Below are positions 5,084 through 61,193 of a DNA stretch of 64,000 nt, one piece after another. Source of the stretch: Periconia sp. R9002 (Eukaryota; Ascomycota; Dothideomycetes; Pleosporales; Periconiaceae); NCBI GenBank assembly GCA_023627715.1, contig JAMAHW010000002.1:124001-188000 (forward strand). The letters run 5' to 3'. The translations under genes and the position numbers were made by a program. The notes beneath the pieces are model-generated. The model searched no databases. It worked only from the letters and a program-made list of their open reading frames with translations, and was not told where the DNA came from. The first letter of the stretch is position 1. Every line of letters begins with the position of its first letter.

Positions 5084-7393
5084 ATGGCCCCAGCACCAAC
5101 CGTCGCCGTTCACAACCACGCCCACCGCCCACGAGCCGAAGCCCCCGTGCCAACCCCTTTGCCAGGCCAACCTGCACCTTCGCGCGCGAACCTAGGGCCT
5201 CTCACGACCGCTTTCGCTTTCCCCTCGCACTGCTCGCGCGCGGCCGTTGTCTCCGGCACTGTCGCGAACCGCGGACAAACCTGCCGCGTTCGAGATGCCA
5301 AACCCACGGCTGAAGATGATACCGGCTGCTGGCCACGTGCAACCGCGTACCCATCCGCCGCAGCCAGCGCCTCTTCCCTGCAAGGTCTGGGTTTCTACTC
5401 CCCGGGTGTGATGTGCCCTCAGGGATATGCGACGGCTTGCTCTGCGGCTGTCCCTACTCTTGGCGCTCCCGCCCCGCAAGTTACTGGTGCCCCTGTTCCG
5501 CAATTTGGATTCCAGTTCCCGCCCGTGGCTGGTGAGACGGCCGTGGGATGCTGCCCTACCGGATATACGTGCGCCATGCATGGAGGAGCGCAGGCCTGCC
5601 ACCAGGTTGCTACCAACACCAAGATCGAGGCCATAACGTGCAACAACGGAGTCGCGATTGTGGATGTAAACACTGTCCAGGTGCCGTTCACAATGGAGGG
5701 AAAGCCAGTGCAGTCGATGGATATCTGGGCGCCTTTGATTCAAATCAACCACCAGGCTTCCGATCTGCCACCTACTACGACCCCAACCCCCACGCCGTCT
5801 AGTACGTCCGCCAGTGTGACGAGCGCACCCGCCTCCAGCTCCAGCTCCAGCGTAAAGAGCTCGAGCTCGGGGGCATCTAGCGTAGTCGTTTCCACGGACG
5901 GAAAAAGCACTGTGCTTTCAACCAGCTCCATCAGCGGATCGGCCACGAGCAGTGCTGCCAGCCAATCGAGTGCTACGAGCAAGCCTTCTGGTTCTTCCAC
6001 TAGTATCTTGAACAACATCCTTGCATCGAGTACCGCCAGTGGAAGCATTAGCGGATCGAGCTCTTCGGGTGCTTCGAGCGTTGCGAGCGCAACAGGTTCT
6101 TCCTCGGGAACTCCCAGCGGAAGCAGCATTGCGTCCAGCATCATAGCTTCCATGTCCAGCTCGACAGGAGGAACAGCTCCCCTTGCAACGGGTGCCGGCG
6201 CAGGAACTGGTGCAGGAGCTGGTACAGGCGCGGGTGCGGGCGCGGGTGCAGGAGTTGGAGCGGGTGCTGGAGCTGGCGCTGGAACTGGCGCTCGACCTTC
6301 ACCAACCGGAGTCCAGACGGCCACCCCCACTCTGCCCACCGGACTGCCCAGTGCAACTGCGAGTGCAGGTCCTGAGCCTGCTCTCAGCACAGGGAGCAAA
6401 GTTGGTATCGCGTTTGTCCCCATCGCGGCCGCCGCCATGCTCGTCACCTATTTCTTGTACCGCAAACAGAAGCAAGGCAAGGCCAAACCCGTCGAGGAGC
6501 CCGAATACAATGAGAAGATGCCACCACCTGATCTGACAGAACACAGCCCGTACAACCAAGACGCCATGCAAAATGGCGGCCTGCACCAGATCGCCGTCGA
6601 TGACATCCAACCTGAATATGCAGCAGCCCACGGCAACAACACGGACAGTGTAGGCATGTTCAACGGCGCCAACTTCAACACCAACACCAACAGCGTCAAC
6701 ATGGCCAGCAATGGCCCTGGTCCCATCGTCTTTGCTGCGGTTCCCAAGTCTAGCGGTCGTGCCGAAGAAGAGGCGATGCACTACTATGGCGATGACCGTG
6801 ACTTGCACGCCCCGGGAACTCCCAGTACTCTTTGGCCCGACACCGACTCTGCTCATACTCGCTCTGAATCACGTGGCACCGACGTTGAAAGCATTGACTC
6901 TCCCATTGACGGCACATCACCTTTCCGCCTGAAGCGTGGCGACTCGGCAAGAAACAAACACGGTTCTCACGGTTCATCTCCTCTGGCTCATGAATATCTT
7001 CGCAACGAATCTTCTGCTTCCTCTCTCAATGAATCCTCGGCCTCATCTTACGACTCACAATCATCCCCCATGAGCAGCGAATTCGAATTTAACGGTCTCA
7101 AGAGGGAAAACTCGTTCTCGCGACCTAGGCCATCCCGCCCAAAGACGGGCACGAGCAGCGTCTACACCGATGGAGACCGTGACACGCGTATACTCAGTTG
7201 GACCGACGAAGGCTCGCCGATGCCCCCAATTCCGGAATCGGCCATGCTAGAGACGGTGATGGAGTACGAAGGTGGAAAGCATGACAGTCTTGAGGCAGCT
7301 GTGGCAGCCATTGCCGCTGGCAAAATCACTCCTCCTAAAGAGTCTGGCAACGTCAGGCAGCCTCCCATGGCCGCCACTGGCCATGTATTCTGA
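5084..7393 (+). CDS. Ser/Thr- and Gly/Ala-rich single-pass membrane protein
   Basis: Single exon, 769 aa. Order: a Cys-containing N-terminal region (about residues 50-205, with paired motifs such as GCCPTGYTC); a Ser/Thr-rich stalk (about 230-365); a Gly/Ala run (about 369-404, GAGAGTG-type repeats); one hydrophobic segment at about 440-461 (VGIAFVPIAAAAMLVTYFLY) followed by the basic stop-transfer RKQKQGK; then a long polar tail of about 300 aa with Ser-rich patches. This is the layout of fungal plasma-membrane wall sensors and similar O-glycosylated proteins. No N-terminal signal peptide is visible at this start, so either an upstream exon is missing or the membrane helix directs insertion. 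The tail could carry phosphorylation sites, but no domain is recognised. Orientation (N-terminus out) is inferred. Confidence 0.8.
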   Translation: MAPAPTVAVHNHAHRPRAEAPVPTPLPGQPAPSRANLGPLTTAFAFPSHCSRAAVVSGTVANRGQTCRVRDAKPTAEDDTGCWPRATAYPSAAASASSLQGLGFYSPGVMCPQGYATACSAAVPTLGAPAPQVTGAPVPQFGFQFPPVAGETAVGCCPTGYTCAMHGGAQACHQVATNTKIEAITCNNGVAIVDVNTVQVPFTMEGKPVQSMDIWAPLIQINHQASDLPPTTTPTPTPSSTSASVTSAPASSSSSSVKSSSSGASSVVVSTDGKSTVLSTSSISGSATSSAASQSSATSKPSGSSTSILNNILASSTASGSISGSSSSGASSVASATGSSSGTPSGSSIASSIIASMSSSTGGTAPLATGAGAGTGAGAGTGAGAGAGAGVGAGAGAGAGTGARPSPTGVQTATPTLPTGLPSATASAGPEPALSTGSKVGIAFVPIAAAAMLVTYFLYRKQKQGKAKPVEEPEYNEKMPPPDLTEHSPYNQDAMQNGGLHQIAVDDIQPEYAAAHGNNTDSVGMFNGANFNTNTNSVNMASNGPGPIVFAAVPKSSGRAEEEAMHYYGDDRDLHAPGTPSTLWPDTDSAHTRSESRGTDVESIDSPIDGTSPFRLKRGDSARNKHGSHGSSPLAHEYLRNESSASSLNESSASSYDSQSSPMSSEFEFNGLKRENSFSRPRPSRPKTGTSSVYTDGDRDTRILSWTDEGSPMPPIPESAMLETVMEYEGGKHDSLEAAVAAIAAGKITPPKESGNVRQPPMAATGHVF
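5774..6293 (+). repeat. Low-complexity coding repeat (Ser/Thr then Gly-Ala)
   Basis: Inside the membrane-protein gene. First a Ser/Thr-rich tract (AGCTCC-like units), then at about 6190..6293 GGTGCAGG/GGCGCGGG hexamer-like units encoding alternating Gly-Ala. Such tracts commonly vary in length between strains. Confidence 0.7.
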
Positions 7394-24122: not shown

Positions 24123-26138
24123 ATGGCTTCTACGAGTTCACAGCAAAATTCACAAGCCCAATTACGTTCGGTATTAGCTCCGGTCCCCGGGCTACCTGCA
24201 ATGGACGAGAGCCACTTCGAGTTCAAGGGCGATCTCAAAGATAAATGGCTCATGTTGCACATTGGCGTGTTGGAAGACACAAACGTCTCTCCCAAACAAT
24301 TCAAGCCGGTACATGGTATTATGAAAGTTAGGGACGGAGGCCAGTTTGTCAATGATCCCGTGGCCTTTATCAGCGACCACAAGGAAGTCTCGAAGGCTAT
24401 CGAGACCGCCGACCCATGTCTCACTCTAGAGGATCCTTTCTCTAGATCCAAACGCATGGACCGGATTGTTTCAATGGTCAAATACTATATCGTTCTCAAG
24501 GGTCAATCTGATCCGCGATATAGATACAAGGTCACAATCAGCGATGAGGACATGATTCACATCTATGCAGTGGCTCGAACAAAAACTTCGTCTAATAGGG
24601 CCATTCAGAACCAACCTCTGAATGACAATAGACAAAAGAAGCCGTCTCAAGAGCGTTCGAGTATCAATGCAACCAAACAAGTTCGAGACCGCTCACACCC
24701 GACCAGCCAGAAGCGAGCGAATTCACGCGGAAACAATGAGAACAATGAATCACGGAAAAAAGGCCGTGTGGGACGTGATGAAGACATTGGCCGCATTTGC
24801 GGGGAGAACTCCACTGCTTTCAGCAATGTCTTAACGCACTCGAATCTGGACGTTCAATATCAAGTTTCCCAAGAACTTTCCAAAATTGTGAGTCAAATAG
24901 GGAAACACACACTTGAGAATCTCCCGAATGTTTCGGAGGGGAAGATGTTGGAAGCACTTACCCTAGAAGATAGGGAGGACCTGCTTGTCCCGTTTCAAAT
25001 CCGCTACGGGAATAGCCATTCACGAAATGGCGAACTTCAAGAAGTGTGGATTCAGATGTGTTTTCCAGAGCATATGCAGGGACACCCGGAGGTTCGATTC
25101 ACTCTACAGAGCAATGACGGCAACTTCCAGGATTTCTTAAGTGAGGCCAACATACGTACTGCGACTTGCGATGTTGTGCTGGCTTTCCAGAACCTCTCTG
25201 CGGCGAAAAAAGTCACAACGGTTGCAAAATACTGGTTTCTAAAGACAATCCAGAAAGACAATCTGATGGCCGGTATCAATTTGTACCATGACCTCAATTT
25301 GGGCAAACACTTCATTGACGAATTGGAGAACGTTTGCTTAGAGGTCAAACGCGCGCAAGAGGAAGTGCAAAAGAAGTTGGCCAAAGCCCGCAAAGGGGTT
25401 GCCGTGGTGACAGGACGCAAAGCTTACATGGGTCCCTCTCAACCTCTCCCACCACATGGGGTATTCTCACCCGACCCAATGTTTTCTTTCGAGGAGGAGA
25501 ATCGTCGTAGAGCGGAAGCGGCAAAGCGACGCGTGGAATCGGGTTCTTCAGCCTCTGCACACCCGGTTGTCATATCTGCCTCGGACATCGAGTATATTTC
25601 TTCTCAGAATTCTACATCGACGCAGTCGTCGCAGGAACAGAGCCCAGAGCCAGAGTGGGAACAAGTAGAGCTCAATATTCCGGATGGAGGCTCTATTCTA
25701 GATTTGCCAACGGAGGAAGAACACGGAATTTCGAGTTCTCAGGAAGTCCAGACGTTCCTACCCACAGACGAAGAGAACATGGCTTCGGGCGCCACAACTA
25801 TAGCGACCGATTTCCCCGTTGCTACCCCAGACAATCAGTCCCTTGGCGCAAATCGGTCTACAAATGTGGCAGAACTGGTTGCACGCCAACTCCTACTTCG
25901 TACAAAGGAAGCTAGGAGCACGGACGACGCGAGCGTTCTCCAGAAGGATCAGAAGGAATACGATAAAGATGAATTCGATCTGAACGTCCGAGCGGTGAAT
26001 CTACGAATGCGTAGAGACCAAGTCAACCAGGAAAAGCGGAATATCCAAGATCAACAAGAGGAGCTTGATCAAGAAAAAGCACGCCTTAGTTATGAGGACC
26101 GAAAACGCTTCGACAACTACTTGGGTGACAGTACGTAA
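24123..26138 (+). CDS. Array gene 1: two-domain member of unrecognised family
   Basis: Single exon, 671 aa. First and most divergent gene of a tandem array. Two copies of the array domain can be aligned: copy 1 at about 30-150 (KWLMLHIGVLEDT ... RIVSMVKYYIVLKG) and copy 2 at about 264-395 (LENLPN ... EVWIQMCFPEH ... TTVAKYWFLKTIQ). They are separated by a basic linker (KKPSQERSS, SRKKGRVGRDE) that may be a nuclear signal. A helical Glu/Lys/Arg stretch (about 403-425), a Ser/Gln/Glu-rich region (about 475-560) and a C-terminal coiled coil (about 607-662, QVNQEKRNIQDQQEELDQEKA) follow. It lacks the KRRR tail of its relatives. The family link rests on block order and the hydrophobic KYYIVLKG/KYWFLKTI motif, so it is less certain than for the inner genes. 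Function unknown. Confidence 0.75.
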   Translation: MASTSSQQNSQAQLRSVLAPVPGLPAMDESHFEFKGDLKDKWLMLHIGVLEDTNVSPKQFKPVHGIMKVRDGGQFVNDPVAFISDHKEVSKAIETADPCLTLEDPFSRSKRMDRIVSMVKYYIVLKGQSDPRYRYKVTISDEDMIHIYAVARTKTSSNRAIQNQPLNDNRQKKPSQERSSINATKQVRDRSHPTSQKRANSRGNNENNESRKKGRVGRDEDIGRICGENSTAFSNVLTHSNLDVQYQVSQELSKIVSQIGKHTLENLPNVSEGKMLEALTLEDREDLLVPFQIRYGNSHSRNGELQEVWIQMCFPEHMQGHPEVRFTLQSNDGNFQDFLSEANIRTATCDVVLAFQNLSAAKKVTTVAKYWFLKTIQKDNLMAGINLYHDLNLGKHFIDELENVCLEVKRAQEEVQKKLAKARKGVAVVTGRKAYMGPSQPLPPHGVFSPDPMFSFEEENRRRAEAAKRRVESGSSASAHPVVISASDIEYISSQNSTSTQSSQEQSPEPEWEQVELNIPDGGSILDLPTEEEHGISSSQEVQTFLPTDEENMASGATTIATDFPVATPDNQSLGANRSTNVAELVARQLLLRTKEARSTDDASVLQKDQKEYDKDEFDLNVRAVNLRMRRDQVNQEKRNIQDQQEELDQEKARLSYEDRKRFDNYLGDST

Positions 26139-27330
26139 AGGCTTACAGGATGGAACCGGAGTCGGAGTAATAGTTGGGATGAGAATGCCGACCCGTTGAA
26201 TACCTCGATGTTCCTAGAGTTGTTCCTGATTTCTTTCTTTCATTGTTGTATTTCTAGGACTCCGAGAGTGGGAAGGAATTGAGTGGCCGATCGATAGTAG
26301 GGTAGTAGCACTGGATCTCTGCTCGTTTGCGGACGGATCTGGAGCAAGCACCCAAGCGTCTAGATTACGGCGGAATCATAGCCTTACACCACTAGGAGAC
26401 ATAATGTATTAATTCAGAACAAAATATTTTTGCCAAATTTCTTTGTGAGACTCCTCAGTTGACACTTTTTCATGACTCGTGCCCCATATCAAAGTAATGA
26501 TCATTTGCCACTGAGAAATCACAAAGCTCCCCTCTCAATTTCGGTACCTTTCTTCGATCTCTGTGGGTAAGAATGTCCATTCGTTTCACAATTTTCTTTA
26601 CATTGATCAATCCTGTGTGCTGTTCTCTCCAATCATGGCTGTCAACGGTCAGGATGCAATTTATTTTTACATCACTTGAGTACAAGGGGAAATCAGAATT
26701 GGAGAGGGACCTAATGAGAAAGGTCACATCAATGATGGATAGTATTGTTCGAAAAGATTACACAAAATTATCCCTCAGACAGTCATATGCTGGAAGTAAT
26801 TGAAAGAAAGCGGTGAGAGAACTTGAAGTTACACTAGCTGATTGACGATAGTTGTTTGACGCCACCCATTCCCGCATTATATACGATGTCAGTGTACAAC
26901 GTACAGAATTACTTGAATACATTAGTCTGTATTTAGACTAGTAAAGGTCGAACTACTATTATATCTTGACCATTGGAGTGACACATCAGATCAAGTGTTC
27001 ACCGCCTGCCTCAAAATTTGAATTGTGTTTACCATCAGAGCAATTTTCAAGGCTTGACTAGTGTAATCCCAACATTGTCCGCGTCCCTGCCTCCCGTGTC
27101 TGTTTGTTTACAATTGCAGGTTTAGGCACCTACCGTGGGCCGCGTCGCGTCGCTGTGCGTAAACAAGACAAAACACGCAGTTGCCTAAGACCAAAAGTTT
27201 TTTCGGCGCATCTTGTACTTCCACCACCTCCTCCACACCTAACTCTCACCTCCCACCTCTGAATTGGTACAATCCAGGTAAGCTTCCCACGGCCTAATAT
27301 TGAAAGTGCGAGACATCAATCTTATTGAAA
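26139..27330. other. Intergenic, array genes 1-2
   Basis: No coding remnant recognised. A pyrimidine-rich leader (CCACCTCCTCCACACC) precedes gene 2 at about 27215..27270. Confidence 0.4.
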
Positions 27331-28532
27331 ATGACAGGCATATCCAGTATGGCTACTGAAGACTCCATCCGTGTCAACACCCCGAGGATTTCTCATCCTC
27401 AAGTGATGACCAACACAGATGTTGTGGACACTGTAGAGAAACATGGCTCTACAAACCCCCAACTTGAAGTGATACGTCGAGCATGCGGCGATAAGGCCTA
27501 CCTCCTCGAAAAGCTTCCTTACGAGAAGATCACGTTCGAGCACCACGAAGACGATGTGACCCTCACTGGCAAGAGTACTCCAGTCGTTCCTATCAAGTTT
27601 CACATAGCCACCGACTACACTCACGAGGCCAACCACAACGTCATTATTTGGGCGTATTTGTTCGAAAACACCGAGACTGACCCTACACCCCGTGTCGGAT
27701 ACTTTGGGCTTGACAGTAATAACGAGGTCATACAATATGACAACCAGACTCTTCTACAGAGTGCCATTCTCACCGAAATCTTTCCTGTCAAGTGCCCAGC
27801 GGCTATGGTTCCAGCATTGGTTAAATTCTACTTCTACAAATTGGGAGTCAATTTACCAGCTTTGCCAACCTTCAACAAGGAAAACACTGATAACATCATT
27901 CGGGCCTGCGGCAGATTTGAAAAACCTATCCAAAATAGTCGCAGAGCTACTCGATCGGAGCGTGCTTCCAACGAAGCATTGATGTCGCCGCCTACCTTCA
28001 CTCGTGACTTGTCGCCTGCAATTTCCTCCCCAATCAACAATCATTATGCGATGTCGCAGACGATGTCCCCAGGATTGGCCACCCAAGGTGATTACCCGGG
28101 ACCCAGCTATATCAACTGGTCTCAAGTAGGTTCTATTCATCATGCTGCTCATGACTCTGACTAACGTGTCGATAGACCTCCCCATATGGCAATTCCTCCA
28201 CCTTCCTCACACAGATCTCGCTAATCTTGGATCGAGAGAGTCTCTATGAAGAACGCCTTGAAGGAGTTACAGCAGCAAAGAAAGAACAAGAGCAGCAAGT
28301 CATTATTCTTAAGACGAAGGCAAAGGAAGCAGCGGCAGATCTCAAACATGCAGAAGCACAGCACCAAATGTTGAGGTCTCGGGAAGACTCGTTGGTGCAA
28401 GACCTTGAAGCAGTCATAACTGCGAGGAAGGCAATTCTTGAGAACGCCGACCGCCAAAGCAAGATGCTACTCGAGCTGGGAATGAAAATCGGCCGTGAGG
28501 AGAACGAGCGAAAACGCAAGAGATGTTCTTAA
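27331..28532 (+). CDS. Array gene 2: domain plus coiled coil, unrecognised family
   Basis: Two exons: 27331..28125 and 28176..28532, with a 50-nt phase-0 intron (GTAGGT...GATAG), 383 aa. Domain at about 43-200: LLEKLPYEKITFE (58-70), VIIWAYLF (104-111) and MVPALVKFYFYKLGVNLP (159-176). Exon 2 encodes a long coiled coil (about 285-370, ERLEGVTAAKKEQEQQ onward) ending in a basic tail ERKRKRCS. Without the splice the first exon would end at a stop soon after the domain and lose the coil, so the coil's presence in neighbours supports the intron. The MMxIG block is degenerate here (IKFHIATD). Function unknown; nuclear localisation is inferred from the basic end. Confidence 0.78.
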
Positions 28533-29146
28533 AGCTTGAGATCACGGTATCGATACGACCAAAATCTTGGACAAAGGAAGTTTGGGGAAGTTAGGCATGC
28601 GAGTTCTATACGAACGTAATGGGTGGTAGTGGTTGACATTGTTGGCGGCAAGCTTGAATCATAATTGGGCAACACGGTTGCAGAAGTAGATTGGGGCTTT
28701 CAATGCTTCAATTCAGTGATTTCACATTGCTTTTGAAAGTGCCATTGATTTAATACTGAACTCCGGTGATACTACATTTTGTTATGATGACTTACTCCGT
28801 ACGGCTCGCCCAGTTACAGCCCACGGTTGTGTCGACGCACCTGCCTAAGTGCTAGCGCGATAATTTGTTTATATCGTGACTAATGGTCTGTGCTACGTGT
28901 GAGTGTTTGCCTTCCAGTCACCTACTGCACCTCCTTGCTCTGACAACTCTCACCTGGTCTTCTTTACACTTTCTATACCTGGTTTTCCTCCACTTGTGCC
29001 TGCTTGGTACTGCCATTTTCTATCTGAAGTATTTCTGATCAACACTAGACGGTGTGTTGGCGAGCAATCGTGAGAACCTTGGACCAAGCCTACGTTTACT
29101 GATTATCTTGGCCAGCGTGCGACTTGCGTGCTTCTAAACGCCATCC
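28533..29146. other. Intergenic, array genes 2-3
   Basis: No gene seen. C/T-rich leader before gene 3 (about 28917..29000). Confidence 0.4.
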
Positions 29147-30430
29147 ATGGAGCCGCCTCATTCATCGGATACCAGCAATGGGTTTGCCTCTTCAGAAATC
29201 ATTCGAATTGCAGCCAATCAAGCGAACATTTCTGATATACTTATAGAGAAGCTTGGAATGGAAAAAACGGACCTCATAAATGCCTTGCCATTCCAACGGG
29301 CCTCTCTCTCTGATTTCAGGGATATTGCGGCCGATGCAAAACGCGAAGACAAGAAGGAATATACGAAAATCATGGAAACAAATGGGAAAAAACTTAAGAT
29401 GTGGATCGGGGAGTTTCGCGACCGGAGGGCTTCAAAACAACTGTACGCTGTTCTACTCAAACCTGGCAAACCCGTATTTCCGTCTGTCAAGTATCTTACG
29501 GTCAATGACCGAGACCAGCCCAAGTTCGTCAAGTGGGAAGAGATTCAAAGTTTCGTCACCGTGAAGGAAGAATTCGCATTCGCCTGTCACTCTGGATCGA
29601 CTCCGAAGAATTCGAATATCAACGGCCCCGCCCTTTCCGCACTAGTGAAATTTTACTTCTTCAAAGCTGGTGCCACTATTCCGTACGATATGGACCTGAA
29701 GAAGCCAGACTATAAGTTTCAACTTCAATTTGTGGCTGAACGGTTTGCCGAGTGGTCCCGTTCCTCTGGACTGTGTACTCAACAAAACATCAGCGAACAA
29801 GCTCCACTGGCGCCTCCAATGGTCGCAGCACCTCCACCACCCACGACACATTCATCAGTCACGCCGTCTCAACCGGGCGTTTTACGTCTATCAATGTTCA
29901 AACGTCCCAGAAGCATCGTGGAGTTTCCTTCTTCAGCTTCGCAGCCCTTGCCACAACGAAAGGGTCAGGACTTAAACTGCGCTCAGAACGTCACTTCCAC
30001 TAACCAAAATACCGAAGTGATCCGAATTATGGAGGAATATAATACAAAATTTCAAAACTGGGAGAACTTGGCCAGGAATTGCGAGGATGGGGAACGTGCT
30101 AACGACATTCAAATCAAGAAAATCAAGCAAGAAATGGGTAGGATAGTGGAGGAGAAAGCCAAACAGCAAGATGAGCTTGACCGTATCCAGAAACGATTGA
30201 AGGAACTGGAGGATGAGCTGACGAAAAAAGAAAGCGAGGTCGAGGAGGTTGAGAAAGGCAAGGAAGGTCTCCGCGCTCAGCTACTTGACATCAAGAAACA
30301 GCGTAGCTCGGCTCGTGATTCCATGCCGCTCATGATGCAGACGTTCTTTGACAACATCTACAGCACGGGAAAGAAAGATCAAGAGGAAGATCAAGACGAC
30401 GAGCCCTTGATGAAACGTCGTCGGATCTAA
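29147..30430 (+). CDS. Array gene 3: prototype member, domain plus coiled coil plus KRRRI tail
   Basis: Single exon, 427 aa; the cleanest example of the family. Domain at about 28-202: DLINALPF (42-49), LKMWIGEF (83-90), LYAVLLK (99-105), FPSVKYLTV (111-119), EEFAFA (141-146), LSALVKFYFFKAGATIPYDM (163-182). A Pro/Ser/Thr-rich linker (about 205-270) leads to a strong coiled coil (about 318-385), then DSMPLMMQTFFDN (391-403), an acidic run (QEEDQDDE) and the basic end PLMKRRRI. No signal peptide or membrane segment. I do not recognise the family. The layout suggests a self-associating nuclear protein (inference). Confidence 0.85.
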   Translation: MEPPHSSDTSNGFASSEIIRIAANQANISDILIEKLGMEKTDLINALPFQRASLSDFRDIAADAKREDKKEYTKIMETNGKKLKMWIGEFRDRRASKQLYAVLLKPGKPVFPSVKYLTVNDRDQPKFVKWEEIQSFVTVKEEFAFACHSGSTPKNSNINGPALSALVKFYFFKAGATIPYDMDLKKPDYKFQLQFVAERFAEWSRSSGLCTQQNISEQAPLAPPMVAAPPPPTTHSSVTPSQPGVLRLSMFKRPRSIVEFPSSASQPLPQRKGQDLNCAQNVTSTNQNTEVIRIMEEYNTKFQNWENLARNCEDGERANDIQIKKIKQEMGRIVEEKAKQQDELDRIQKRLKELEDELTKKESEVEEVEKGKEGLRAQLLDIKKQRSSARDSMPLMMQTFFDNIYSTGKKDQEEDQDDEPLMKRRRI

Positions 30431-30974
30431 ATGTACATGGCTTGCCGGCTCTGTTGGTCAGTTGGAAGGAAAGCAATAGTTGGGATCACACCGAAGGACT
30501 ATAGAAGCTGGGGTTTTTGCGGTATATCGCATTGTAATGTCTAATAAGAGGAGAAAAGGGTATCGAATAGCGACTGTAACTTATTTGGGGGGTGCTTGGT
30601 ATGAGAATGCGCGTGGTGGGCAGTTGGAGTGGTACTTGTTGGACAAAAGGCGTGGAGCAGAGAAGATGGTCCTCGAAATCAAAACTACCATTGCATGTCA
30701 GAGCCACCGTTCATTGAATTCCAATTCGGGATCGCGAGAATCCATGTTCGTCAAATTGAGCTTATCTTCTATTCCTTTAACCCGCCTGTCTTCTCGTAGG
30801 GAGGAGTTCTGGACGGCGACAACCCGCTCCTTCCCAAAGCGCCGCCTTATGACTAATCCGCGCAAGCTGCTTGGTCAACTCGGCCACTCCCATTCCGCCA
30901 CTCTCCCCTCCTCCACGCGTCCTGCCCCAATTCGACAAAGTCTGTGCGCTCTGGAGCCTCTTTAGGACCCAAAG
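30431..30974. other. Intergenic, array genes 3-4
   Basis: No supported gene; an open frame through it has no family resemblance and no ATG at its outer end. Confidence 0.4.
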
Positions 30975-32262
30975 ATGACAGGCTCGTGGAATCCTGTAAA
31001 TGAACCAAATGCCCAGCCTGCGGATGTCCCGCCTGTGGGTCGTGGACGGGTCTTTCCTGGACCATGGACGAGCGAAGGTAAGAAACCGTAAAACAAACTG
31101 ACAACAAATGTATAACTGACACCGCTGACAAGTTACTTCTGTATTAGGCAATGCAACGAGTCGCCAAGGAGCAGGTACTGTCTGCCGCCAGGTCGACAAT
31201 GTCAGCACGGCAAGCATACACGTCAACACACGCAAGGAAGAGGATCAGATCAATACAAATGGCACTGCCTCGGAAACAATTGTTCCAGCTAAATCGGTTG
31301 ATACTGAGAAGGAACTGATTAAAGATCTCCCAGATTCCGATCAGAGTCTTATAAATGCCCTTCCCTTCCATCTTGTCGAGTTCCATGATTGTAACACTGA
31401 CATCGAAACTCCCAATGGGCAATTCAAGTCAATCGTTAGCAAGAAGGATGGGAAATGCTTCATGATGAAAGTTGGAAGTTATACCGAAAACGGCCACGAG
31501 ATTCGTGTATACGCTATTCTCGTGAAGACCAAACTGGGCAGGGATCTGCCGCTGATTCAATACATGGCTAAAGACTCTGATGGATTCTACGAAGAAGTCA
31601 CCGCCACTCAAGTTAGTCAAAACATATCATCGATCCGCCGGGAATTTCTTGGGAACAAGGGAATGGAGTTATCTGCCTTGATCAAATTTTACTTTTTAAG
31701 GAAAGGCATTGACGTTTCATACCAGATCGATAGTGGCAGGGGCCAGTTCCAACGTGACCTTCTTAGGGCTGTCAAGAAGCGTGCCAAGATTACTGAGGCC
31801 AACAACGATCGAGTTCAGACGTCATTTGTTGACCCCACCTCCGGCCATTCCAGCGCGACTCCGGCGGCTGCATCATCTTCTCAACAACCAATTCCTAGCT
31901 CGGGTGGAATGGGGTTTGTCGCGAAGAAATGGGGGATGATTCAGAAGGGTCGCAACGACACAACCAATACAAGAGACTCAATTCAGGAAGTGCTTGAGAA
32001 AGTCAGGGAGGAAAAGGAAAGAGCTAGGAACGCAATGGAGGATGCAGAAAAAACTTTGGAGGATTGCTATTTCAGGATTAATAAACTGAAGGAAGACTAC
32101 AGAGCCCTTGGTGAGAAAGATGCCAAAGACGAAAAAGACCAGCGGTCGCTGGTTGCTTCCCTCCCAGAAGACGAGCAAGACGCTTTCTGGCTTTTGGTAG
32201 AAAGCGCAAGGGATTCGAAGGACGAGGATGATCAGCCGTTGGTTAAAAGACGCAGGATCTGA
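30975..32262 (+). CDS. Array gene 4: domain plus coiled coil plus KRRRI tail
   Basis: Two exons: 30975..31077 and 31148..32262, with a 70-nt phase-1 intron (GTAAGA...TATTAG), 405 aa. Exon 1 gives a Pro/Gly-rich N-terminus (MTGSWNPVNEPNAQPADVPP). Domain at about 88-247: LINALPFHLVEFHDC (102-116), CFMMKVGSYTENG (138-150), RVYAILVK, DLPLIQYMAKD, LSALIKFYFLRKGIDVSYQI (209-228). Linker rich in Ser/Ala/Gln, then coiled coil (about 310-367), ASLPEDEQDAF, acidic DSKDEDDQ and end PLVKRRRI. The tail is nearly the same as in gene 3. The internal ATG at 31462 would cut the domain in half, so the spliced start is preferred. Function unknown. Confidence 0.82.
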
Positions 32263-32894
32263 GTGAGACCCAGTTTGTCTTCTTGAGCCAGCTAGTGGGT
32301 GATCTGAAAGTTCTAATCTGAGGGAGACTTCGCGTGAGGAGCTGTTGGCCACGGTACGGATACATGAAAAGGGACTAGTCTAAGGTTGTAGAATACGGTA
32401 AAGATATGGTGGACGAGGTGGTTTCCACGGGGAATTTGCTTCACAGGTTTCAATGGAGGTTTTCTGTTATAGGTAGAAAGTTCAAAAATCACTTTCGAGA
32501 GCTGCATTGTCACCCCTATTATCCATTCGTGCAGTATAAATTATTCAGATTTGCTGGTGAGCCAATTTGGTCTGTTGACGTCGCTCCTTCCTAGTCGGCG
32601 AGCGGCTTGTGTAACCCGCGCCAAGACTGACTTGGGTAGGTGACTTTACCTCGCTCACTCTCACCACACCTACTCGTCTACTTCCTCTTCACTTGACCTC
32701 GCTCTTGTCCGCTCTCATACTTTCAGCTCCTCCTGCTTTCACTGAAGTTCCCGGAGGGCTTTTAGTCGCTCTACTTGGGATTTGCTCACGGAAGGACCAG
32801 CAAATCATCCCGAGGGCTGCATTGGCAAGGTTCGTTTTGATGACCAACTCCAAACGTGGCGCGCACTGATCAGTATTTTTACATGATAGGAACC
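32263..32894. other. Intergenic, array genes 4-5
   Basis: No gene seen; C/T-rich leader at about 32640..32760. Confidence 0.4.
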
Positions 32895-34784
32895 ATGTCT
32901 GACTCGTCACTGGGAACTCCGGAGACCCCGACGGTCAATGGAATGGAAGTCAAATACTCCATTCCGGCCAATACTCATAACCTCTCCGAGGTACTTATTG
33001 AAAGACTAGGTTCAGACACCAAAAGTCTGATTAAGGCTCTTCCCTCGATCACACAGATTCAGTTCGATAACTCCCGGGAGCTTCCTGAAGCTGCCAACAC
33101 TAGTGAACCCTTCAAGAAAATTTTCAGAGGAACTGTTTGCTACATAAACGAGAAAGAGGTCATGATGAGAATTGGTCACATCTCTGGTGATGGGAATCGG
33201 AAACCTTTGTGGGCCTACCTTGCTACTGAACAATCCGGCAAATTCATCCCATCTGTTCGATATGTCACAAAGGATAAAATTGGTGGTTTCACGCAAATCC
33301 GGGCAAATACAATTCAGGAATCGGCAACGCTCAATCCAGAACTTTCATTTGCTTCGGGCTCGGATTTATCAGCTCTCATAAAACACTATTTTTTTCAGGC
33401 TGGTGTTGTTGTACCATAAGAGATAAAGATCAAAACAGATGGCTACCAGAATGCTCTCGTACGAGCGGCAGAACTTTATTCACAGAAGAGCTCAACGAAC
33501 CACCGCCAAAGCTCTGAGGATGCAGTGGTTACCGACACAGCATCGAACATGATGATGCCTCTTTCTAAAGATCAAGATGACCTCGGCGATGTGCCTGTAT
33601 CTGGAGCGCAATTCGAAGTGAGAGTGCCTGCCGGAACCGTACACATGGCAGAGAAGTTATCGGTTCTTTTGGATGAAAAAGAGAAAGAACTGATTATGGG
33701 TTTACCTTTCAACCCAACTGATTTCGCGATCTTGATGAGAAACAACATAAAAGATAGACGCAAAGACGCATTTCTCGGCATTGATGATGCAAAAACCTTT
33801 GTCCTCGCTCTTCCAATCGGAACAAAAAAAGACAGCCAAACGGACAGCCAAACGGATGACGATGTTTACGCGGTCTTGGACGTTGCCCCAAACTTCACTG
33901 GCTTTGTGCCCCACACGCTACCATCGGTGATTTACCTTACAACTCACGACTACAACGCAGGTCTATATCGAATCTGCCACTCAAATTTTGCAAAATACGT
34001 AACACTGGAAGAGAAATTGAAGGTTTTTGCAACGCCATCAATGTTGTCAGCGATAGTAAGGTATTACTTTTTCAGACACGGCAATCCTATGCCCTCTGAT
34101 CTAGTCGTAAAGAGATCGACCTACATAAGCGATCTTGTGAAAGGTGCAAGATTGTATGCAGAAAAAATTGGCAATCGTTCGAATGATGTGAAAGGGGAAC
34201 AAACTGAGGATCTTGAGATTGATCAAACAGGGATCGGCTCGCACAGTATTAGTTCACAGAACTCTGGAGCTGGAATTGAGAATAACCCGCTCCCAGACGA
34301 CGTGGACGCGGGAAAAAAGTCACCCCAGACAGTCTCAGCAACATACGTTCGATCAACCACTCCGAGTGTCCAACCCGCCCCAACTGTTTCTGGACCTATT
34401 AGCTCTTTGGACAATCTTGCCAGCTTTTTGGAAGACTCTTGTGCCCAGATCGAAACTCAAAAGAGCATGAGAGAAGCTCTTCAGACTCGAATGGGGAAAG
34501 CTAAAAACAACAAAGAGTCGCTGGAGCAACGAATGACACTTATGGAAGAAGAGAAGCGGAAGTTGGAAGTGGAATTACTCGAAGCAAGCAAAGAGGTGGA
34601 ACGCCTTGAAGTGGAGGACGAAAACCATCTGCAGGCTATAGAGGATGCAGAGACAGGAATGAAGGAGGCGTTGGATAACACTGATCCCTCTGTCTCCAGG
34701 ATCTTCAAAATTGGTTGTGGATATGGCGTAGGAAAGGAGGGACAAGACGGGGAAGAGCTACCAAACAAGAGACGCCGCCTGTGA
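32895..34784 (+). pseudogene. Array gene 5: two-domain member interrupted by one in-frame TAA
   Basis: One reading frame runs for 630 codons with a single internal stop, TAA at 33417..33419 (codon 175). Before it lies domain copy 1: SLIKALPSITQIQF (44-57), VMMRIGHISGDGNRKPLWAYL (89-109), FIPSVRYVTKDK, LSALIKHYFFQAGVVVP (158-174). After it the frame continues without a break as EIKIKTDGYQNALVRAAELY, which aligns with sister genes right after their conserved Tyr (IPYD). A second domain follows (ELIMGLPF, LPSVIYLTT, LSAIVRYYFFRHGNPMPSDL), then a coiled coil (about 34430..34670) and end LPNKRRRL. The stop therefore replaces the Tyr codon. Either the gene is freshly broken or it yields a 174-aa domain-only protein; a downstream ATG cluster near 33549 could start the second half. 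Alternatives: sequence error, or a very short intron. Confidence 0.8.
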
Positions 34785-35429
34785 TTCTGCGGTTATCGAG
34801 ACTTGCGTGAATCAGCAAATATTGAGAGACAAAGATGAAGGAGAACAATGAAGGAGGAAGTTTAATGGCTGGTGTTTTGTCGAGAAAGAGTCAATTCCAG
34901 TAGCATACCCTACAAATATGCCTACATTCGAATATTCCTGGGTAGCCCATCAATGTTTAGTTCATGAAGGTTTCTTAATTTGATACTTGAGTCAAAAACA
35001 CTTTTCCACATTCATAGATGAATCGTATCAAGAACTTCAGCTTGAGTTCAACCTGGAATGCTTGGACATCTAGATGTTGAAAGTATCACGTGATTAAACA
35101 TTTGTTGGATGCTCATATGTGCATCTGCAGGCTTGAAATAGATTGCAAGGTTCCCAAATTTGTTGATCAAATACACTTGCAAGAGTGTTGAGACTGGTGA
35201 TGTACATACCTACCTAGGTATGTATCAATTGATGTCAATGTGCATGATGAAGCTGAAAATAACTGGGATCCCATGCTAGCCATTTGTGGTGTTAGCGCGC
35301 TTGATTCAGATTGTGCACGGACGGCCACGTTGCGGGACATTTGGGGGCTGGGGGGGTCCGTGTCGCTGGTAACGGTAACCTCAACTCCACGCCGCCTGCA
35401 TGCACCTAAACAGCCGCGGCGTTCCCATC
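34785..35429. other. Intergenic, array genes 5-6
   Basis: No gene seen. A near-palindrome built on CATACCTAGGTATG lies at about 35204..35225; similar CCTAGGTA words occur near 53801 and 18212. Confidence 0.4.
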
Positions 35430-36593
35430 ATGTCCGCTCCCCAGTTGGAGTTTCCCGGCTCGCCCATGGCGGATGAAGATATGTTGAGTGGCGATGACGA
35501 CAATCGCAACGATGAGGGGGCGCACGTTGTTGCCGCGCACACAGCCGAAGTCGCCGATGTTCTCACCGCGTCCCTCACCCCTGACGAAAAGAGCATGATC
35601 GACGCGCTGCCTTGTGACCGTATCAAAATCGAAGACTGCAACGAATACGCCGATGTCAACGTCAATTCCAATTCAAAGTCCGAGTTTGCGTCTTCGATCT
35701 GTAAGAAGCAGGGTAAAAAGTATGTCATGATGCGGATCGGAGACGTGCTCGACGACGGTGACTCGAAACCTCTATGGGCTTTCCTCTCCCAAAGACGCAA
35801 CAGTAAAATCCTGCCAACCGTAGTCTTCGTCACCAAATGCCGTGAGCGGGGCTTCAAAAAGCTTGCCTGCAAAGGATTGGACATTCAAAACACGTGGAAA
35901 ATGTACCCGGAATTCGCCTTCGCCACAGGAAGAACGCTGTCGTCGCTCATTAAACACTACTGGTTCAAAAATGGATATACCATTCCTTACGATCTCAAGT
36001 TTAACAAAAAACCTCTGTATAGTCACGGACTCCTCCGTGCCGCAGAAAGCTACCGAAGAAGCAAACCTACCGGGAAGGGCATCAAACTGGAAAATGCCGA
36101 CCCGGAATCTATTATAGACCTAACGGAAGAACCTGAGGTCCCCCAAATCGTTTTGGACGAAATGGACATAATATCCTCCAATCCCTCAATTTCCCCTGTT
36201 GATCAATCCTCCCAAGAGCAGGATCCGCGCAGTGCAAGTGCATCGGAATCTGCACCCTCAACAGTCCCAACAATGAGCGGTTTCGAACTCCTGGAGAACT
36301 TCAACAGCACGTGGGATTCCCTGGGAAAACAAGTGCAAGACAAGAAAGCCGACAGATACGCCAACAAAGCCGCCCTCGCCGAACAGGAGCAGGAAGAAAA
36401 GATGTTGCTCGACAAGCTGAACCAGTTGAGATCGGACATGCAAAACCGGCGAACACTTGACGAGGCCATTGCCGCGGAGATTGAAGATATCAAAAATCGG
36501 AAGGTTCAGCTCCTCAATGACATGCCTTTGCCGATGCAGACATTCTTCAAGAACGCGTCCGACTATCACCAGAACAAGGATCCGGAGGAGTGA
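35430..36593 (+). CDS. Array gene 6: domain plus coiled coil, with SUMO-interaction-like motif
   Basis: Single exon, 387 aa. I chose the ATG at 35430 (MSAPQLEF, A at -3); an ATG at 35400 adds ten residues in a poorer context. Domain at about 38-210: SMIDALPCDRIKIEDC (55-70), VMMRIGDVLDDGDSKPLWAF (99-118), ILPTVVFVTK, EFAFATG, LSSLIKHYWFKNGYTIPYDL (170-189). The linker holds ESIIDLTEE (about 226-234), which resembles a SUMO-interaction motif with flanking acids. Coiled coil at about 300-362, then NDMPLPMQTFFKN, matching gene 3. The protein ends at NKDPEE and lacks the KRRR tail of its sisters; a minisatellite begins about 55 bp after the stop. Function unknown. Confidence 0.83.
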   Translation: MSAPQLEFPGSPMADEDMLSGDDDNRNDEGAHVVAAHTAEVADVLTASLTPDEKSMIDALPCDRIKIEDCNEYADVNVNSNSKSEFASSICKKQGKKYVMMRIGDVLDDGDSKPLWAFLSQRRNSKILPTVVFVTKCRERGFKKLACKGLDIQNTWKMYPEFAFATGRTLSSLIKHYWFKNGYTIPYDLKFNKKPLYSHGLLRAAESYRRSKPTGKGIKLENADPESIIDLTEEPEVPQIVLDEMDIISSNPSISPVDQSSQEQDPRSASASESAPSTVPTMSGFELLENFNSTWDSLGKQVQDKKADRYANKAALAEQEQEEKMLLDKLNQLRSDMQNRRTLDEAIAAEIEDIKNRKVQLLNDMPLPMQTFFKNASDYHQNKDPEE

Positions 36594-36646
36594 GGATTCG
36601 AGGCCGGATATCGATGACCGCGAAGAAACTATTGTAAACTATGCTG

Positions 36647-36850
36647 TTGTGTTTACGATCTACCTGTGTTTACGATCTGCCTACGTGCACGATCACCTAC
36701 CTTGTGTTTACGATCTACCCGTGTGTATGATCTACCTATGATCTACCTGTGTGTACGATCCACCTACCTTGTGTTTACGATCCACCTTGCGTGTACGATC
36801 TACCTACCTGTGTACGATCCACCTTGTGTGTACGATCTACCTGTGTCTAC
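36647..36850. repeat. Minisatellite, TGTGTACGATCTACCT-type unit
   Basis: About 200 bp of imperfect direct repeats with a core YGATCYACC; I count about eleven YGATC cores, spaced 15-24 bp. Variants: TTTACGATC, GTGTACGATC, GTGTATGATC. Starts about 55 bp after array gene 6. Open frames across it are only repeat translations. Confidence 0.85.
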
Positions 36851-36970
36851 GTCCCGATTGAGGACGCTTTCGCGGATTGTCTTATCCGTGTTGATACCGC
36901 GAGTAACTCATTACTCTGCGATGATAGCTTCATCTCTTGCTATGCTTTTCTCTTTCTCGTTTTGTATTTT

Positions 36971-37080
36971 GATTTTAGGCTTGTTGTTTTTTGATTTCAG
37001 GCTTGCTGTTGTTTGTTTTCAGGCTCGTTGTTTTTTGTTTTCAGGCTCGTTGTTTTTTTGTTTTCAGGCTCGTTGTTTTG
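36971..37080. repeat. Minisatellite, TTTTCAGGCTCGTTGTTTTTTG-type unit
   Basis: Five units of about 20-23 bp; the first two are variant (AGGCTTGTTG, AGGCTTGCTG) and the last three share TTTTCAGGCTCGTTG exactly. T-run length varies between units. Confidence 0.85.
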
Positions 37081-38054
37081 TGTATGCTTGTTTTACCTTG
37101 CTAGTATGGTTATCTGTACCGCGCATGGATTGATTATGTCTCGCGTCGGAAAGAGTATTTGTTCTTAATTTTGGGATCTTGTTTTTGTCGAGGTAGAACC
37201 CCTCCGAATCGTTCACACACACAAAAAAAAAAAAAAGAAAAAAAAAAGAGAACATGTTTGTGTTCTGCTGTTCGTGCTATCTGCGACCATGCGGCATAGG
37301 TAGTGTACGTTTAGTGGAAGCAGTTTACCTGCCAATCAATACACAGGTCATATTCTCAATTTCCTCCACGACAAGTCTAGTCGTACTCGCCACCTCAATT
37401 CCCCTAATCGAGTGTAGAAATGAAAAAGCAACGCGGTGACGGTTGCTCGGGGCGAAACCTGCATCTCTTATGCACCAATCACAGCTCGAGCTCGTCTAGG
37501 AGCTACCACAAGCTCATCTATCTCCCACTTCACCGACGGGTACTTGCATTGTTTGCCTGCAAGGTTTTCTTTCAGCCCGTTTACGGGTTCGCTGCTGCCT
37601 GTTTGCCTTAGTTGTATACGTGGCCGCTTTCTGGCGGTGAGGAGGCGCTCGCACTTTCTGCTTTCTGATTTTACACCCCTCTCCGTGCTTTCTGCTTTCA
37701 CGCCCCTCTTCTTTAACTCAGTTATTGGTTGGTGTGGTCTCATGAGAAGAATTTTGATAGAATTTTGACTGGACTATTGCGAGTGTGTTTTTAGATGTGA
37801 GTACGCCGATTGGTGGCATTATTGATGCTGCTGACCTGTTCTTCTCCCTCCCACGTAGCTTTCTAGAGACATATATCGCTTTTCTTGCGTGCTCCCCAAG
37901 CCTGAGCATTACAGTGTCTAGGTGTCTGTGTCGATACCGCTGGTAGTCTGGATTGCTACCACGACGATAGATCGTCGTTACATACCGCCTTTGACCGCAC
38001 GTCGCTTACCAGATATCTTGTCGCTACCTTCTTGGTATCTTCACCGATAGAGAA

Positions 38055-39134
38055 ATGGAAATAATATCCCTGGACAACGAGAACCTTGAAGGACTTCTTG
38101 CCCAATTTGAAGAAGATGAGAGGCGATTGGTTGATGCTCTTCCACACAGCAAGGTTAAACTCGATGACTTGCCCGAGCATGAGGCTGCTCGATTACAAAA
38201 CCTTCCACACTATGGTTCTCCAATTCACTACGTCATGATGGAAATCGGCGATATCCTGGATGAGAAAGAGAAACAGGTTATTTGGGCACTACTATTCAAG
38301 AGAAAAAGCACCAAACGCGGCCTGCCGAACGTGAAATTCGTCATTAGGTCCACGCTGGACAAAGATCTCAGACCCCTTGATATCGAAAGACTTATTAAAA
38401 TGCCGGTTAGATTTCGGGAAGAGTTTTCTTTCATTGCGACTCAAAAACTGTCTCTGGAAGCGCTCATCAGATTCTATTTCTTAAAGCACGACTACGATGT
38501 TCCATGGGAAGTGGATATGGACAGAAGCAGACGATACTTTGCGGCAAGTTTAGCAATAGCCGCAGAAGAGTACGACGTGGAACAAGAAAGCAATCAGGGG
38601 CTAAAGTCTGGTTCAAGTTCCCTCCCGGGGCCTACAGGCTTCCCCAGACCATCATATACCGCAGGGAACATCGCAGATCAACGACCCACTTCCTTGAAGA
38701 TCATACCGGAGATAAACACCAACCAAAGAAAATCCAGCACCACAGAGAGCGGCCTGGAAAAATGGCAGTTACTACTCAAACAGGGCCGGGTTCTTCGAGC
38801 CAAGAAAGATTCAAACTGGAAAGCACTCATCCAGTACGAAAAATCGGAGACGGCTTCCAACGCCCGGATAGCCACCCTGGAAGCAACACTCGAAAGAGAA
38901 AAAGAATTCCTGCAGGAAGCCCGTTCCAAGGCGAAGAAGCTGCGGGATAAGGACAACTTCCTCACGACACAACAAGTGAACAATAAGAAGGAGAAGCGAA
39001 AACTACGTGACTCTTTGCCGCCAGATATGCGCGCTGTATGTGAGCTTGTATGTCAAGATGTGCGACAAGCGATGGAAGATGAGGATGAGATGCCGTTGGG
39101 GAAGCGTCACAGGGTGGGAAGTACATATATCTAA
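38055..39134 (+). CDS. Array gene 7: domain plus coiled coil
   Basis: Single exon, 359 aa, with the shortest N-terminus in the array, so the domain starts almost at Met1. Domain at about 1-174: RLVDALPHSKVKLDDL (24-39), YVMMEIGDILDEKEKQVIWA (59-78), GLPNVKFVIRST, EEFSFIA, LSLEALIRFYFLKHDYDVPW (132-151). Linker of Ser/Pro/Gly, then coiled coil (about 255-315), LRDSLPPDMRAVC, acidic EDEDEMPLG and basic end KRHRVGSTYI. The C-terminal KRHR corresponds to KRRR of its sisters, followed by five extra residues. Function unknown. Confidence 0.83.
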   Translation: MEIISLDNENLEGLLAQFEEDERRLVDALPHSKVKLDDLPEHEAARLQNLPHYGSPIHYVMMEIGDILDEKEKQVIWALLFKRKSTKRGLPNVKFVIRSTLDKDLRPLDIERLIKMPVRFREEFSFIATQKLSLEALIRFYFLKHDYDVPWEVDMDRSRRYFAASLAIAAEEYDVEQESNQGLKSGSSSLPGPTGFPRPSYTAGNIADQRPTSLKIIPEINTNQRKSSTTESGLEKWQLLLKQGRVLRAKKDSNWKALIQYEKSETASNARIATLEATLEREKEFLQEARSKAKKLRDKDNFLTTQQVNNKKEKRKLRDSLPPDMRAVCELVCQDVRQAMEDEDEMPLGKRHRVGSTYI

Positions 39135-39783
39135 TCGTGATCTGGGGTATACTGTTGATGAGGTTTCACTATCTGTGTCGTATGACTTGACCACCGGCAT
39201 CGCAGCAACCCAACCACCATTTTTCGATCATTTGATGGTGGGTTCTGTGAACCATGTTGGATATCAAGTATCAATGGAAATCATTTTATTCACATGTCAC
39301 CATCTATAGCCTCGCATCACGCATACGAGTGTACCCTCCGCTCATGTAGCTGTTTGGTTAAAGTACTATACCCCGTACAGTTAAACGCACTCCGAGCACG
39401 GAAGATTTTTGTCGCTGTTACCATATGGAATCGCCGAGGTGGGGGCATGTCAGATGTTTGGAATTGTTTTTAAGTCGCGTACTTACGGCCCTTCCACATG
39501 CGAAACCGCAAATAGCAGACGTATATACATAATCGCTGTTACTGTTGGTTGCTTAAAAGGCCATGTGCCAATGATCGCTTGTGCACTGGCAGTACAAGAG
39601 AAAGTCAGAGCTTGGTGTTACGTGACCACTCCGCGTCCTCCCCACGAACACATTTGATAAAATTCACACAAAAACCCAAGATAAATTGAAATACTCATTG
39701 TTTTCTCTCTTCTATTTCTTCACCGCCATTTACAAAATCATCTATCGCGGTTCAATACCCCGTCCACACAGTCCCACACCGTC
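39135..39783. other. Intergenic, array genes 7-8
   Basis: No gene seen. Confidence 0.4.
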
Positions 39784-40800
39784 ATGACGAGAACCCATCG
39801 CCAGTCTAAGCATGCAAATGCAAAAGAAGATCGAGCAAAAACAAAAGACAAACTAAAACAATCAAACGGTGGAGATACATCCCGCAGCAGCAATCCTGAG
39901 CAGAAAGATCCTCTTCACTCCAAAAACATCGGCGCCTCTACCAACATGTCTACCAACCACAACCCAAACCCCCGGAAATTCCAAAAATCCCTCTCCCTAT
40001 TGCGAAACAATCTCAGCGCTCAAGAGAAACAAGTCTTCGACGCACTCCCACTGGCAGACACACTCTCTTTCCCAAGCATAAACATTATCCCTGCCTCCCC
40101 CAATGCCAACGCCAACGCCAACATCCAAACAACCCTCTACCTAGGAATCCGCCCTCTATCAGACCCCACCAAGTTCGCCCAGGAATATGCAACCCTCCAC
40201 GAACCATCCACAAACAACCCATCCATCAAAAAAGAAAGCGAACCTACAATCACATACAACGAACGCGAGTTCTCATCACCCACCTCTCCTGGCCCTCCAC
40301 AGCTTCCCCAAAGCCACCAACTATCCCAACCAGGCAACATCTTCTACAAGCGCACCGCAATCAGCCTCCTCCGCCGTCCCCACCTCCTCGACCCCCCTTT
40401 CTGCTTCCTCCACTTTAACCCTTCATCGCAAAAGGAACGCCACGACATCAAGTACATCCTTATCGCTTTCATCCTGTACTACTTCGCGGCGAGCGGGAGG
40501 ACCAAAGCGGCGTTCACGTGGAGGGGGTTCAAGGATTACTTCAAGATGGGTATGCAGCTCCTCGAAGGTAGGGGGGATTGGTGGACGTGGGTCGAAGAGC
40601 GGGGACGGAGGAGGAGGGGTGAAGGAGGGAGGTTGAATGAGATTGCGAGGTTGGTTGTTCCGGGGGAGGAGGAGGAGGAGGAGGAGGGTTTGGTGGATGT
40701 TGAGGATTTTGTGGGGGGAAAGGAAAGGGGTGGACTGGAATGGCTGGGCGGGGAGTGGGTGGATCGGATGGTGGAGGGGGAAGGATGGGGATGGGGATGA
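39784..40800 (+). CDS. Array gene 8: most divergent member
   Basis: Single exon, 338 aa. A basic N-terminus (MTRTHRQSKHANAKEDRAKTKDK) precedes LSAQEKQVFDALPLADTLSF (about 78-97), which matches the first domain block, and IKYILIAFILYYFAASG (about 223-239) followed by FTWRGFKDYF, which matches the last block. The middle is expanded by Asn-Ala repeats and a Pro/Ser-rich insert. The C-terminus is Glu/Gly/Trp-rich with a run of seven Glu, and no coiled coil or KRRR end is seen. Base use is odd: the coding strand is C-rich in the first two-thirds and abruptly purine-rich (GGAGGAGG) after about 40485. Family membership rests on two blocks and position, so it is tentative. Confidence 0.6.
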   Translation: MTRTHRQSKHANAKEDRAKTKDKLKQSNGGDTSRSSNPEQKDPLHSKNIGASTNMSTNHNPNPRKFQKSLSLLRNNLSAQEKQVFDALPLADTLSFPSINIIPASPNANANANIQTTLYLGIRPLSDPTKFAQEYATLHEPSTNNPSIKKESEPTITYNEREFSSPTSPGPPQLPQSHQLSQPGNIFYKRTAISLLRRPHLLDPPFCFLHFNPSSQKERHDIKYILIAFILYYFAASGRTKAAFTWRGFKDYFKMGMQLLEGRGDWWTWVEERGRRRRGEGGRLNEIARLVVPGEEEEEEEGLVDVEDFVGGKERGGLEWLGGEWVDRMVEGEGWGWG

Positions 40801-60827: not shown

Positions 60828-61110
60828 ATGGTGCTGAAGCTAACAGAACTCACTATCAATTGATGGTGATATTGCGATGAGAGAGAGTAAAACGGAGGCA
60901 AACCCGAGACTAGTAGACTTCAACGATGTGGGGGGCGGACACTAAGCTGACGGTCCGCTCCCGTTCATTGATGCTTAGTTTGTATATGGGGTGCTCGGAT
61001 TATGCTCCCCGAACCGGGGGTACGTGCAACAATAAGCGGCACAGTCTTTTTGAAGAGAGAGAAGGTGATTGGAAATGCACTCTTTGATTGGACGTTTTTG
61101 GTCTGTTGAG

Positions 61111-61193
61111 CCGTCAGCATCTTCGTTCCCGTCTCTTGAATCGTCAGCATCTTCGTTCCCGTCTCTTGAATCGTCAGCATCTCCGTTCCCGGT
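61111..61193. repeat. 30-bp tandem repeat, three units
   Basis: Unit CGTCAGCATCTTCGTTCCCG plus TCTCTTGAAT; the first two copies differ at one base and the third is diverged at its end (CTCCGTTCCCGG). Period exactly 30 bp. Confidence 0.9.

Follow-up and report, generated by a model that had tools for sequence, protein, structure and literature searches.

Genomic Array and Gene Structures

The analyzed stretch of DNA (hereafter the window) comprises 64,000 nucleotides of Periconia sp. R9002, positions 124001-188000 of contig C2, and the genome searched with it amounts to 42.9 Mb in 267 contigs. Six loci on the same (+) strand, between window positions 27331 and 39134, carry seven clear copies of one domain of about 170 residues. 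A first-pass annotation of the window had described a head-to-tail array of eight genes with ten domain copies in common ordered blocks. Our open reading frame (ORF) calls and the block pattern bear out the same-strand ORFs and their blocks at about these places. The count does not stand as given: on sequence comparison, six loci are clear members, a seventh (g1) is a probable one, and an eighth (g9) is unsupported.

The first clear member, g2 (27331-28532, 383 amino acids), is modeled with two exons, 27331-28125 and 28176-28532, separated by a 50-nt intron (28126-28175) that has a GTAGGT donor, a branch-like site CTGACTAAC, and a TAG acceptor. This model is supported because an ortholog from another Periconia species, P0002, aligns along the spliced protein (230/380 residues identical). 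The next gene, g3 (29147-30430, 427 amino acids), is likewise a clear member. In g4 (30975-32262, 405 amino acids) exons 30975-31077 and 31148-32262 flank a 70-nt intron (31078-31147), and alternative starts and acceptors exist among the five models listed for it.

The fifth locus is a frame of 646 codons with two domains and a single TAA inside it. Its upstream part, g5a (32895-33419), holds the first domain and is interrupted within that domain by the in-frame TAA at 33417-33419. The same frame continues past the stop as g5b (33420-34784), with the end of the first domain, the second domain (33609-34184), a putative coiled coil, a KRRRL terminus, and an internal ATG at 33549. Matches in the genome searches span the TAA, which may be a mutation or a sequence error. 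Gene g7 (35400-36593, 397 amino acids) has its domain at 35517-36074, and a start at ATG 35430 is more likely, judging by the start of its ortholog P0001. The last clear member is g8 (38055-39134, 359 amino acids). The interrupted fifth locus, the probable introns of two genes, a common C-terminal block, and a dispersed copy on contig C72 were all absent from the first-pass annotation.

Family Membership

How firmly are these copies joined to each other? With the g7 domain as the query over the whole genome, we recovered g5a (E-value 7e-31), g8 (5e-16), g3 (3e-14), g4 (1e-13), and the C72 copy (7e-12), and g5b weakly (0.03). The latter is tied in through g5a (1.5e-7 over the whole genome). Domain-only phmmer comparison in a set of 12 ties in g2 (g2-g5a 1.1e-5, g2-g4 1.9e-5), which as a query over the genome finds no other copy below 0.035. 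Pairwise domain comparison thus joins g2, g3, g4, g5a, g5b, g7, and g8, the two most distant, g2 and g5b, through intermediates. An ordered three-block regular expression, composed after the alignment was in view, matches exactly the seven core ORFs among the 440 window ORFs of at least 60 codons and nothing in 200 shuffled ORF sets, so that the blocks align above chance by pattern as well as by pairwise score. The tandem paralogy proposed earlier is supported, two of its eight genes being doubtful (g1) or unsupported (g9).

A profile made from the core copies necessarily recovers the core, and its informative results concern the outsiders: g1, g9, and the C72 copy. The 671-residue product of g1 (24123-26138, + strand) includes two weak domain-like stretches, g1a (24234-24503) and g1b (24978-25247). 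The whole protein scores 12.8-14.0 bits, a value reached by none of 1000 and none of 2000 shuffles (E 6e-4 among the 440 ORFs), and g1b alone scores 13.4-14.4 bits, again with 0/1000 and 0/2000 shuffles as high. When the profile was cut in three, no shuffle equalled the summed score of whole g1; that of g1b was equalled by 324 of 2000, which counts against membership. The g1a stretch is weak (3/1000 and 6/2000 shuffles as high; summed parts 2/2000), and pairwise comparison of g1 gave nothing significant, the best value being 0.0014 (g1b-g5a, set of 12). Gene g1 is probably a very divergent member of the family. The adjoining gene g9 (39784-40800, + strand, 338 amino acids), proposed as a member, is unsupported: it scores 1.7-2.3 bits, with 6/1000 and 6/2000 shuffles as high and E about 2.5 among the 440 ORFs, and its domain piece alone gives 8/1000 and 5/2000.

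The dispersed copy (C72:184086-185353, L021:87-1354) reaches 70.8 bits against the profile with 0/1000 shuffles as high. Downstream of its domain lies a Q/P-rich frame in a different register, which may reflect either an intron or a change of frame. Ten own-genome searches with different members as queries, which score the best candidates only and so give a lower bound on copy number, found no copies outside the array and C72 besides two insignificant matches, on C31 (E 3.8, query g1) and C17 (E 0.05, query g9).

The stop in the fifth locus and the out-of-register frame behind the C72 domain would suit a mobile element or virus whose remains have been domesticated or are decaying, with no present function for the host. 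Against this, copies are limited as just described, the core frames other than that of the fifth locus are open, and orthologs of three genes have been kept. A search of IMG/VR with one pattern gave 25 pattern matches, none of them confirmed, and comparison with viral folds gave no significant match (best E 0.33 in BFVD). We regard such an origin as quite improbable. The domain family itself is well supported at the sequence level; its function we infer.

Orthologs in Periconia macrospinosa and Age of the Array

In three word-filtered searches of 5.8 billion sequences, the only protein relatives returned were three from Periconia macrospinosa (Periconiaceae, Pleosporales): the hypothetical proteins DM02DRAFT_612492 (P0001), DM02DRAFT_652942 (P0002), and DM02DRAFT_670089 (P0003). 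They form reciprocal best pairs with g7, g2, and g3, respectively, aligned along nearly the whole protein, and each pair scores far above the next window protein (645 vs 94 bits for g7/P0001, 463 vs 23 for g2/P0002, and 428 vs 57 for g3/P0003). Identity is 292/385 for g7/P0001 (75-76%; head 86%, tail 66%), 230/380 for g2/P0002 (head 68%, tail 56%), and 230/421 for g3/P0003, with conservation higher in the head than in the tail for g7 and g2. In the 11-row tree g2/P0002 was supported at 100/100 and g7/P0001 at 94/93; g3/P0003 (90/87) was found in the 14-row tree only, and most other branches remained open. All three P. macrospinosa proteins are reported with the same longest contig of 252,972 bases, which suggests that they lie on one contig and probably in one array. 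The protein searches brought up no ortholog of g1, g4, g5, g8, g9, or the C72 copy; the word filter, rather than absence, may be the explanation.

Given these reciprocal best pairs, the duplications that split g2, g3, and g7 are older than the separation of the species. By these comparisons the array is old and maintained, pre-speciation duplication applying to those three genes, and the family is apparently restricted to one lineage. The earlier idea of gene birth by tandem duplication is thus upheld in its tandem paralogy and not in the recent origin that the term suggests.

Strongly diverged heads in a tandem array and long paralog branches in the trees are also what could be expected of a fungal allorecognition or incompatibility-like array, in which paralogs under diversifying selection recognize partners or competitors. 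HET genes are reported as expanded in P. macrospinosa by Knapp et al. (2018, PMC5910433), yet they are a different family. Neither HET (PF06985) nor NACHT (PF05729) was among the Pfam matches at E up to 1 in nine array ORFs, some of them single exons or pieces. The retention of three orthologs, with a g7 head that is 86% identical, likewise speaks against this explanation, to which we give little credence.

Domain Architecture

The AlphaFold2 (AF2) model of the g7 head, made with nine sequences, has a predicted local distance difference test score (pLDDT) of 80.7 and a predicted template modeling score (pTM) of 0.82, and it predicts a compact alpha/beta fold. In the full-length AF2 model of g3, residues 19-206 (29201-29764) show nearly the same order of secondary structure; this model was folded with ten overlapping sequences and so is not independent of that of the g7 head. 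Two loops of the g3 head drop to pLDDT block means of 47 and 56.

The head has no significant match to a Pfam family, PDB sequence, PDB fold, or viral fold, in agreement with the earlier remark that no named domain fits. No described relative came up in these searches, and no published description of the family appeared among the literature matches listed. Weak Foldseek matches of the g7 head or of g3 include the Sec3 N-terminal PH domain and Atg3 (E2-like). In the RWD/UBC-like comparison there was no Pfam match at E up to 10, and Atg3 is among the weak Foldseek rows and not in the VIA rows. A rival explanation is that the head is a very divergent form of a known alpha/beta fold, UBC/RWD-like or of the Sec3 PH type, which would make the proteins remote cousins of known coiled-coil adaptors (kinetochore or trafficking subunits, for example). 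We consider this unlikely, if less so than the two explanations discussed above.

At 22 columns of the head, at least 8 of 11 copies agree. Charge occurs in only one of these columns (K/R at domain residue 140; nine K, two R); in each of the remaining 21, a hydrophobic or aromatic residue, Pro, Gly, or Ala holds the majority. Because the conserved columns are almost all structural, the head is unlikely to have an active site, and sequence conservation thus favors non-enzymatic proteins.

Behind the head, the g3 model predicts a disordered linker, mostly below pLDDT 50, followed by a long coiled-coil helix of about 105 residues (residues 288-392, 30008-30322; from residue 291 onward the block means are 84-96), an interruption at Met-Pro, a short second helix (residues 395-417, 30329-30397) of falling confidence (88, 82, 56), and a disordered basic tail up to the stop. 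The full-length pTM of 0.46 fits a flexible linker. The coiled coil claimed in the first-pass annotation is consistent with this predicted helix, and the oligomeric behavior claimed there would follow from the same helix.

The proteins end in PLMKRRRI (g3), PLVKRRRI (g4), PNKRRRL (g5b), PLGKRHRVGSTYI (g8, with PLGKRHR near the C-terminus), KRKRCS (g2), and KDPEE (g7). A motif of the PLxKR[RH]R type occurs in g3, g4, g5b, and g8, that is, in four of the 440 ORFs, all array members, and its KR[RH]R part is common to these four tails and P0003. A basic cluster at or near the C-terminus is present in five of the six intact core tails, so the basic C-terminus ascribed earlier to most members holds for g2, g3, g4, g5b, and g8 and fails for g7. 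The type of tail is conserved in the three ortholog pairs: the basic ends of g3 and g2 recur in P0003 and P0002, respectively, and neither g7 nor P0001 has such an end. These clusters are the sole basis for the nuclear character also proposed, which would accordingly not extend to g7 and P0001.

Proposed Role of the Array Proteins

Oligomeric adaptors are commonly built as a compact head that a flexible linker joins to a long coiled coil. The explanation that we favor, still tentatively, is an old, apparently lineage-restricted family of non-enzymatic proteins with head, rod, and tail, which Periconia-related fungi have retained as a tandem array. The rods would pair the proteins, with themselves or with each other, and the basic tails would carry most members to the nucleus. 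The heads would be divergent modules that bind a protein or nucleic-acid partner, their conserved positions being structural rather than catalytic. Gene g7, which has the most conserved head of the three with orthologs and no basic tail, may encode a distinct partner subunit.

Several points weigh against this explanation. As a nuclear signal, a cluster of basic residues at the C-terminus is weak, and it is missing from g7 and P0001. The head of g3 is no better conserved than its tail (53 vs 54%). The fifth locus is broken, so that copy is possibly dispensable. By a crude heptad score, most of the proteins could not be clearly told apart from shuffled versions of themselves: of 200 shuffles each, as high a score was reached by 1 for g4, 3 for g3, 11 for g8, 19 for g5b, 21 for g7, 49 for P0002, 65 for g2, 109 for P0001, and 141 for P0003. 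Support for the coiled coil therefore comes mainly from one AF2 model and from weak Pfam matches.

A bolder version is that the fold is new and confined to one fungal lineage, and that paralogous nuclear coiled-coil subunits act in combinations, g7 being the common subunit and the basic-tailed proteins the variable ones, with heads that read different targets. Such a regulatory or chromatin system, specific to the lineage, would have no relation to known families of transcription factors, and we hold it to be rather improbable.

Genomic Setting

The genes around the array look ordinary: to its left lie those for a forkhead factor, a DEAD helicase, and an amidase, and further right one for a short-chain dehydrogenase. 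Between g7 and g8 there are two minisatellite arrays, at 36648-36851 and 36962-37083, with units of about 17 and 22 nt. Elsewhere in the window, a tandem repeat at 61101-61191 consists of three 30-nt units with 93% matches; as 30 is divisible by three, the repeat could belong to a coding sequence. The ORF at 48507-49427 matches 2EXR below threshold (E 7e-4; 21.2 bits vs the cut-off of 24.8). A 769-residue ORF at 5084-7393, with short repeats at 6189-6292, has no Pfam match at E up to 1e-3.

Comparison with Known Systems

Fungi commonly have undescribed lineage-specific (orphan) families, and this lowers the interest of the array. It stands out as a conserved orphan array by a confident head model without a structural match, a conserved modular layout, and kept orthologs, and the globular domain that it defines had no named counterpart in these searches. 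If the fold is new, a structured domain would have arisen, or diverged beyond recognition, in one fungal lineage and then diversified by duplication, its members being kept across species. If the function is regulatory, the array would help to explain many unannotated lineage-specific genes of root-endophyte fungi.

Among named families, Cast (PF10174), APG6_N (PF17675), and TACC_C (PF05010) resemble the array proteins in the coiled-coil heptads of the rod. These weak matches fall in g3, g4, and g5b, below the curated cut-offs (best E 2e-4), in the C-terminal half and outside the head, and they indicate coiled-coil similarity only. A broader parallel is provided by P. macrospinosa, for which Knapp et al. 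(2018, PMC5910433) give 211 species-specific clusters, 26 of them with known Pfams; the array family is like its unannotated species-specific gene clusters in general kind.
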